28,194 nt of DNA from a virus. Under the pieces are notes generated by a model. It ran no database searches. It was not told where the DNA came from and saw only the letters and a list, made by a program, of their open reading frames with translations. The stretch covers positions 1-28,194 of IMG/VR virus record IMGVR_UViG_3300020180_000099; one strand, 5' to 3'. Below are positions 15,203 through 16,369 of the stretch, piece after piece; position 1 is the stretch's first letter, and the number at the start of each line of letters is the position of its first letter. The translations under genes and the position numbers were made by a program.

Positions 15203-15234
15203 GATTATATGGCTAATAATATAGAAACACGTTT
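15203..15234 (+). repeat. Left copy of a 32-bp inverted repeat bracketing the iterons
   Basis: This sequence recurs in inverse orientation at 15851-15882 with one difference in 32. The two copies enclose the first iteron cluster, the first terminator and the first promoter. Confidence 0.85.
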
Positions 15235-15281
15235 TTTACTGCCACCTGTCATGTCAAAATGCTGTCAGGATGGCTTTAAAT

Positions 15282-15603
15282 GGCTTAACAGAGCCACGTT
15301 TATGCTGACAGGTAGCTCAAACAAAAAAAAGGGTGGCTTAACAGAGCCACGTTTATGCTGACAGAGAATGACCAAAAAGGGGGGTAAACAAATTCGTATA
15401 GAAGATGATGATGATGATAATGTGATGATGATAATCCCTTATACCTCTTTCTAAATCAAAAATCTCTGGTTCCCTGGTAATAAGCCCGTGTTAAGCCACG
15501 TTTATGCTGACAGGTTGTAAAACGTACCTGACAGCATGGTCTGCTTTTTAACTTTAACGACTGAACAGAGCCACGTTTATGCTGACAGGTGTCTGTCAGC
15601 ATA
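15282..15603. repeat. Iteron cluster type I (core TTATGCTGACAGGT)
   Basis: Four direct copies share GCCACGTTTATGCTGACAG: 15282-15313, 15335-15364, 15495-15515 and 15564-15590 (longer flanks GGCTTAACAGA in the first two). The last copy forms a perfect 11-bp hairpin with an inverted half-copy (15578-15588 and 15593-15603, loop GTGT). Further degenerate half-sites lie at 15244-15251, 15259-15270 and 15526-15537, some inverted. A (GAT)n-like run lies at 15402-15435. Repeats of this size next to replication genes are typical iterons or operators. No credible gene is present. Confidence 0.75.
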
Positions 15604-15619
15604 TAATATAATCAAAACA

Positions 15620-15659
15620 AAAAGCCCGTAATGTGGAGAACCTCCATATCATCGGGCTT
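15620..15659 (+). terminator. Terminator-like hairpin A
   Basis: AAAAGCCCG and CGGGCTTTT close an inner stem ATGTGGAG / CTCCATAT, followed by TCGTTG. It works as a terminator in either direction because the stem ends in A and T runs. It sits between iteron cluster I and promoter P1. Confidence 0.65.
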
Positions 15660-15708
15660 TTCGTTGACAGCTTAGTAATTAAACTATGCCTATCCACAGT
15701 CTATCATG

Positions 15709-15737
15709 TTGACTTTAAAATTTCAATCATTTATACA
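15709..15737 (+). promoter_or_regulatory. Promoter P1
   Basis: TTGACT, 17 nt and TATACA. The sequence from 15708 to about 15771 is nearly the same as that of P2 upstream of the replication genes, but the ATG at the matching place (15769) is followed by TTT TAA. Its transcript would therefore not encode a protein before hairpin B. Confidence 0.65.
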
Positions 15738-15783
15738 AATTTCATTATGACAGTATTAATATAAAAACATGTTTTAATCGCAC

Positions 15784-15913
15784 TACCCATGTTGTGATGG
15801 GGTAAAGACCAGTATCATGTCAAGCTCAGAAAAAGAGCTGGGTAAGCTATAAACATGTTTCTATATTATTAGCCATATAATCACAATACCCATGTTGTGA
15901 TGGGGTAAAGACC
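15784..15913 (+). repeat. 27-bp direct repeat pair
   Basis: The segment 15784-15810 (TACCCATGTTGTGATGGGG then TAAAGACC) recurs exactly at 15887-15913, and similarity extends a few bases to either side. Each copy contains a CCCAT-GTTGTG-ATGGGG dyad, so each can fold into a small hairpin. Confidence 0.85.
15851..15882 (-). repeat. Right copy of the 32-bp inverted repeat
   Basis: Inverse copy of 15203-15234 with one difference. A shorter related element (GATAATATGGCTTA) is at 15950-15963 and its inverse at about 16119-16134. Confidence 0.85.
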
Positions 15914-16022
15914 CAGTATCTACCCAGCTCTCACCCAGCTCAGAAAAAGAGATAATATGGCTTAACTGGTTAGTATACCACAGTTTACCCAGCATAACCA
16001 GCATAAAAGGGGGGGCAACCCC

Positions 16023-16062
16023 TATATATATATATATATATATATATATAAATATATATATA
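16023..16062. repeat. (TA)n tract, candidate DNA-unwinding element
   Basis: About 14 TA units, then AA and five more TA/AT units, form the longest pure AT segment seen in the window. It follows a GGGGGGCAACCCC dyad. With iterons on both sides it is the best candidate for an initial melting site. A 3' extension remains AT-rich to the P2 promoter. Confidence 0.6.
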
Positions 16063-16188
16063 CAATCTCTCTATATTATGCTGGGTGAGCTGGTAATTGT
16101 GATTTGTACGTTCAAGTTAAACCATATTATCTCACCCAGCATCTTTTTCTCATGCTGGGTGAGCTGGACATGCCGGGTATTAGCTATA

Positions 16189-16241
16189 AACAAAAAGAAT
16201 GTCAAGAGATAGCAACGCTATCAAAAGACATTCTTTTTGTT
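16189..16241 (+). terminator. Terminator-like hairpin B
   Basis: A perfect 15-bp outer stem (AACAAAAAGAATGTC and its complement) encloses an inner 6-bp stem (GATAGC / GCTATC). The 3' arm ends in CTTTTTGTT. It precedes promoter P2 just as hairpin A precedes P1, and the motif TAGTAAT-AA-ACTATGC follows both hairpins (15673-15689, 16249-16266). Confidence 0.65.
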
Positions 16242-16306
16242 AATCACATAGTAATAAAAACTATGCTGTTGTTATCTTAACATACAACTACTAAAAAGTG
16301 TACCTG

Positions 16307-16335
16307 TTGACTTTAAACTTTCAATCATTTATACT
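16307..16335 (+). promoter_or_regulatory. Promoter P2 of the replication operon
   Basis: TTGACT, 17 nt and TATACT match the sigma70 consensus well. Transcription would start near 16342, about 28 nt before the PrimPol ATG at 16370. This fixes the gene start, since an in-frame ATG at 16298 lies upstream of the promoter. Confidence 0.75.
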
Positions 16336-16369
16336 AATTTCATTAATCACTGTTATTAATAAAAAAAAT

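Follow-up and report, generated by a model that had tools for sequence, protein, structure and literature searches.

In P4, ori1 and crr are paired sites with one iteron in common. SaPI Rep and SCCmec Cch2 read their iterons through a C-terminal domain, and Rep is a self-loading helicase (PMC7581432). Replication modules can also move between genomes: in PLE under ICP1 Odn, RepA and the origin have been exchanged as cognate pairs (PMC8263062). Moreover, a phage origin present in trans can inhibit that phage, as described for lambda IP (PMC3349717) and for lactococcal PER (PMC8965321). For PrimPol-SF3 replicons a stem-loop had been proposed as origin (PMC4234260), and the locus described here provides a candidate iteron origin.

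The stretch of DNA analyzed here, termed the window, is the IMG/VR record IMGVR_UViG_3300020180_000099 (28,194 nucleotides; single strand, 5' to 3'). The locus spans positions 15,203 to 16,369 and contains two iteron-hairpin-promoter cassettes, the distal cassette I followed by the proximal cassette II. We propose that they are probably two complete iteron origins for an SF3 initiator, cassette I stemming from a replaced beta module and cassette II being linked to the resident alpha alleles.

Two cassettes upstream of PrimPol and an SF3 helicase

The cassettes sit between divergent blocks, namely a minus-strand gene starting at 15037 and the plus-strand PrimPol and helicase genes (Table 1). 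A sequence-only reading had recognized both cassettes with their hairpins A and B, and both observations held: each iteron word was reached in none of 300 dinucleotide shuffles, and the hairpins fold at -22.4 and -23.7 kcal/mol. The word CTGACAG/CTGTCAG occurs seven times in cassette I, the shuffle maximum being 4. Cluster I consists of a 38-nt unit in four copies; TTATGCTGACAGG is exact in three of them and the fourth has GA at its end. Hairpin A is flanked by an A-tract and a T-tract, like a terminator. The -10 box of P1 is TATACA versus TATACT in P2, P1 being the weaker promoter.

Table 1. Coordinates of the cassette features and adjacent genes in the window
Feature	Position	Strand	Description	Basis
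Left junction	15118..15135		cassettes begin; leftward ~99% identical to L012; then I (window) or II (L012)	blastn, alignments
32-nt arm	15203..15234	+	97% inverted match to 15851-15882	
Cassette I iterons	15262..15599		word CTGACAG/CTGTCAG; 0/300 shuffles	
Cassette I iteron positions	15262-, 15305+, 15358+, 15507+, 15528+, 15582+, 15593-			
Cassette I AT-rich core	15384..15443		72% AT, after GGGGGG run, between two iteron groups	
Hairpin A	15620..15661		outer and inner stems separated by an internal loop, 3-nt loop on the inner stem; fold -22.4 kcal/mol	
Palindromic TAGTAATTAAACTATGC	15673..15689		between hairpin A and P1	
P1 and leader	15709..15770	+	TTGACT-17-TATACA; matches L012 up to lost start codon	
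Cassette II iterons	15837..16167		word ACCCAGC/GCTGGGT x7; 0/300 dinucleotide shuffles	
Cassette II iteron positions	15837-, 15922+, 15933+, 15987+, 16080-, 16134+, 16154-			
Cassette II AT-rich core	16023..16082		90% AT including (TA)20; GGGGGGG before; iterons on both sides	
Hairpin B	16188..16243		two-stem form as hairpin A; A-tract and T-tract flanks; fold -23.7 kcal/mol	
Palindrome CATAGTAATAAAAACTATG	16247..16265		between hairpin B and P2	
P2	16307..16335	+	TTGACT-17-TATACT; PrimPol(alpha) promoter	
PrimPol, alpha allele	16370..17263	+	PF09250	
Helicase, alpha allele	17263..18810	+	SF3 D5_N/DUF5906; PF08706 2.7e-14, PF19263 1.4e-15	
Predicted C-terminal winged helix of helicase	18511..18777	+	residues ~417-505	AlphaFold2, Foldseek

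The arm at 15203-15234 holds a TTAGCCATAT-type box, reversed, which is present at many relatives' cassettes. The 32-nt inverted repeat (97%) is common to the left ends of I and II, in L012 as well, and the TTAGCCATAT box also lies in the cassettes of L001 and L008-L011. This repeat could be a second binding site or the trace of an exchange between the two origins. To the left of the locus, CATAGTTATTATACTACTGTG at 15061-15081 looks like the palindrome that follows each of the hairpins A and B, and it covers part of the -10 of a leftward promoter-like site (15095-15068); such CATAGTTATTATACTACTGTG-like palindromes could perhaps serve the two divergent blocks as a shared operator. A basic HTH-like microprotein of 52 aa, encoded at 18866-19024 (HTH_psq E 0.16, below cut-off), is a candidate repressor acting on the hairpin-flanking palindromes.

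PrimPol and the helicase are separate ORFs, and an initiator-type helicase of the SF3/D5_N class is encoded beside the cassettes, as at SaPI/P4-type origins; short repeated iterons placed around an AT-rich stretch, another trait of these origins, are found here too. The C-terminal winged helix of the helicase was predicted by AlphaFold2 with a pLDDT of ~83-91 over the domain. Foldseek matched it to many winged helices, including the P4 origin-binding domain 1ka8, all of them weakly (E > 0.04), and a Pfam match to this domain was not found. The full helicase model, of low confidence (pLDDT 56), was nearest to the SaPI5 primase-helicase (E 8.9e-6), and a helicase profile search of solved-structure sequences returned nothing.

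A switch in GC skew, which had been suggested as a sign of an origin, does occur near 15 kb of the window, but transcription direction also switches there, so that the skew is not independent evidence. Known RNA families gave weak matches at the cassettes, mostly on the TA run, and none reached its gathering score. We found no relatives of the cassette DNA among deposited phages, and no relatives of PrimPol in cellular genomes. When viral contigs were searched for the exact iteron patterns, the matches were the record of L012 and L026; the latter is an unrelated GC-rich phage with a single chance match.

Cassettes in related phages

Searches with PrimPol and helicase defined a family of about 12 contigs in addition to the close kin of the window, deposited phages holding only distant relatives. 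A cassette occupies the corresponding position upstream of PrimPol in eleven other related phage contigs; its elements follow one another as iterons, an AT-rich core (in many cases with a run of G or C at its border), further iterons, a hairpin and a promoter, and then comes PrimPol. The iteron words are phage-specific (GCAGACAGCA, ACCAGCAT, ATCTGTC, TCTGCCAGAT, ATGACAGACT, AGTGTAG, ATAGGGGAT and others), and same-strand iterons are mostly 9-11 bp apart, that is, one helical turn. In most of the relatives' hairpins, an internal loop separates the outer stem from an inner stem closed by a 3-nt loop; L001_I and L011 fold weakly. The words lay beyond all 300 shuffles in 13 of the 15 cassettes; that of L018 was reached by one shuffle in 300, and L014 is the weakest member, with a best word reached by 31 of 300. 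Distant PrimPols (25-35% identity), taken as a negative control, have no such iteron words upstream, and the cassette therefore belongs to this family only. As a side observation, the single cassette of L011 (L011:3670-4000) contains both GCGGACAGC and GACCAGC words and looks like an intermediate of the two word classes.

Relatives were also searched for one-cassette and two-cassette forms, as had been suggested. Both exist: nine of the 12 family contigs have a single cassette, and the two-cassette phages are the window, L012 and L001. The helicases of the window and L001 are sisters (support 100/99) with 61% identity. Among nine phages, the proximal words track helicase identity, although weakly (rho 0.38, p 0.026); for the distal words the corresponding values were rho 0.30 and p 0.076.

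Reciprocal arrangement in a closely related contig

L012 (IMG/VR 3300020596_000005) was compared with the window over roughly 25 kb in 500-base tiles. The tiles are mostly 99-100% identical, with a few at 95-98%, and identity is ~99% outside 15.1-18.75 kb. At 16.44-18.75 kb, the PrimPol and helicase of L012 are divergent beta alleles (66-73% DNA identity), mostly 62-80% identical along this stretch, apart from one 50-nt tile of PrimPol at 88%. Near 18747, helicase identity climbs from ~67% to above 92%, the exchanged block ending some 21 codons short of the helicase stop. The right-hand genes, including that of the HTH microprotein, are therefore common to both contigs and cannot be what distinguishes I from II; the microprotein, encoded in a part ~99% identical in both contigs, was accordingly rejected as the reader telling the two cassettes apart. 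Farther right, at 22111-22491, in-frame 33-nt tandem repeats with Tyr/Ala-rich units differ from L012 in copy number and arrangement.

The order of the cassettes is also reversed: the window reads I-II-PrimPol(alpha) and L012 reads II-I-PrimPol(beta), cassette I being 98% and cassette II 95% identical between them. Each distal cassette bears a scar. In the window, cassette I continues through P1 and a leader that matches the L012 PrimPol(beta) leader to the start codon, and then ends; in the window lineage, cassette I was thus once placed ahead of PrimPol(beta), and P1 with its leader is the remnant of the replaced PrimPol(beta) promoter and leader. In L012, cassette II extends past the palindrome into the alpha promoter, of which it retains the -35, and ends before the -10; in the L012 lineage, cassette II was thus once placed ahead of PrimPol(alpha). 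These former positions are read directly from the sequences, and from them we infer the direction and number of the swap events. Initiator allele and adjacent cassette change together in a conserved background, as in a PLE-like module swap, and incoming origin-PrimPol-helicase modules seem to have replaced the resident genes in both directions, leaving the old origin behind. Between alpha and beta, the block 16290-16439, which covers the promoter and the first ~25 codons (~70 nt) of PrimPol, is 88-94% identical and is a likely homologous anchor for exchange. Because this block is unusually alike in both alleles, some exchange within it may have been separate from that of the cassettes.

One could wonder whether such a locus merely reflects an assembly artefact joining two strains, as the records are virus contigs assembled from metagenomes. 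We consider this extremely improbable: L012 is a second, separate contig with reciprocal junctions, each with its specific scar, and a double cassette of this kind also occurs in L001.

The likeness between the two halves of the locus had led the sequence-only reading to propose that one control region was duplicated in tandem and that its binding sites then diverged. The near identity of P1 and P2 was confirmed (41 nt at 95%; about 63 columns with gaps), and TAGTAAT(T)AA(AA)ACTATGC indeed follows both hairpins. The repeat families also have a common sequence, but it is limited to the 8-mer TTATGCTG. The two cassettes do not align above chance along their length: the hairpin-palindrome-promoter parts score 85 versus 19 for shuffles, whereas the iteron and core parts score 20 versus a shuffle mean of 19.4. 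P1 and P2 are similar since each is the promoter of a PrimPol ortholog. Cassette I is like the only cassette of L011 (z 11.4), and so is the distal cassette of L001 (z 11.6). Alignments of cassette II are partly low-complexity TA (scores of 44 with L001_I, 43 with L015 and 40 with L001_II), and GC-containing 5-mers were therefore used; by this measure its word profile is nearest the proximal cassette of L001 (0.43, the next unrelated cassette being at 0.19). Each of the three two-cassette phages thus has a distal cassette that resembles the proximal one of another lineage. Together with the swapped order in L012, which already disfavours it, these comparisons make a tandem duplication hardly credible.

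Another possibility is that the same initiator uses both cassettes, either as two origins or as a main origin with an accessory site, in the manner of ori1 and crr in P4. All parts are present in both cassettes, and the single cassette of L011 mixes both word types. However, the iteron words differ between I and II, most of the family (9/12) manages with one cassette, and the order of the cassettes follows the helicase allele, so that we regard this reading as improbable. A role as operator arrays, or as a source of non-coding RNAs from P1, could be suggested by the terminator-like hairpins and by the palindromes adjoining the promoters. It is very unlikely, as the window has a weakened distal promoter, that of L012 is broken and L001 shows no evident one, no RNA family matches at its gathering score, and the iterons bracket an AT-rich core as they do at origins.

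Proposed origins and comparison with known systems

The sequence-only reading had left a choice between one origin with a regulatory set of repeats and two origins. The second option is favoured by the conserved architecture upstream of PrimPol, the iterons around an AT-rich core and the adjacent SF3 helicase, the origin function of the cassettes being deduced from this architecture and from kinship. The core of cassette I, only 72% AT, argues against it. We propose that the C-terminal winged helix of the helicase would bind the iterons flanking the AT-rich core on either side, that helicase rings would assemble and melt this core, and that PrimPol would prime there; the hairpin would insulate the origin from transcription and mark the boundary to the PrimPol promoter. 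The helicase is proposed as the iteron reader because of its predicted winged helix, the precedent of SaPI Rep and Cch2, and the divergence of residues 441-480: these fall inside the predicted domain and, along with the N-terminal residues 1-40, show the lowest identity between alpha and beta (28% each). Cassette II would be the origin belonging to the resident PrimPol(alpha)-helicase(alpha) pair, and cassette I the origin, weakened promoter and leader of the replaced PrimPol(beta)-helicase(beta) module, L012 representing the reciprocal product. Each helicase would presumably bind its own iterons without cross-recognition, and only the proximal origin would be used. A recombinant would then be viable only when the genes it receives arrive together with their origin; genes would therefore be replaced and origins accumulate, the old origin being kept as a scar.

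Such a scar is the simplest account of the two origins, but a selected role is possible. The second origin could serve as a hijack or decoy site, so that the initiator of a co-infecting rival copies this genome or is titrated or poisoned. Swaps in both directions are seen in the window and L012; L001 has a pattern similar to theirs and the same beta-distal, alpha-proximal order as the window at 61% helicase identity, which hints at long retention or recurrence. The distal iterons and hairpin are largely intact while the distal promoters are not, and cloned origins do exclude phages in lambda (PMC3349717) and in lactococcal PER (PMC8965321). In PLEs, moreover, attack is known to be accompanied by swapping of origin and initiator (PMC8263062). 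On the other hand, with cassettes 95-98% identical, the window and L012 events happened too recently for retention to be told from drift, the distal cassette II of L012 has lost iterons (5 ACCCAGC versus 7 in the window), and most relatives have one cassette. We thus view selection for a second origin as unlikely, and prefer to consider it a leftover of module replacement. If a hijack or decoy role were true, dual-origin genomes could be copied by either replisome, or could poison that of the rival, during co-infection.

The window and L012 form a natural reciprocal swap, with one backbone, two initiator alleles and two origins in both orders. With a 99%-identical relative in the mirror-image arrangement, direct tests of how phage origins are chosen and captured become possible. 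The questions thus opened to experiment are what sets origin specificity in a PrimPol-SF3 replisome, how phages survive the replacement of essential replication genes, and what effect a leftover origin has on competition between co-infecting phages.

Several parallels can be drawn with described systems. SaPI and Cch2 have a D5_N-type SF3 helicase, with an AEP primase in SaPI5, and there a C-terminal domain reads short iterons. The SaPI origin, however, lies directly downstream of rep, whereas the cassettes found here are upstream of PrimPol, and here two origins with different words would share one genome. The P4 alpha protein is a helicase with an iteron origin and a C-terminal winged-helix origin-binding domain, to which the winged helix predicted here would correspond, but its primase is of the Toprim type and fused (PMC4234260). 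With pRN1-type replicons the locus shares a PF09250 PrimPol, an SF3 helicase and a hairpin near the genes; pRN1 has a ~100-nt stem-loop without iterons, whereas here a hairpin is present and iterons dominate (PMC4234260), and its PrimPol and helicase are one fused protein in place of two genes. As in PLE, initiator and cognate origin appear to be swapped together between otherwise similar genomes; PLE, however, uses RepA_N and keeps one origin, and here the old origin stays beside the new one. Finally, the origins of lambda IP and PER were cloned on plasmids, whereas here an origin of the rival type would reside naturally in a phage genome.
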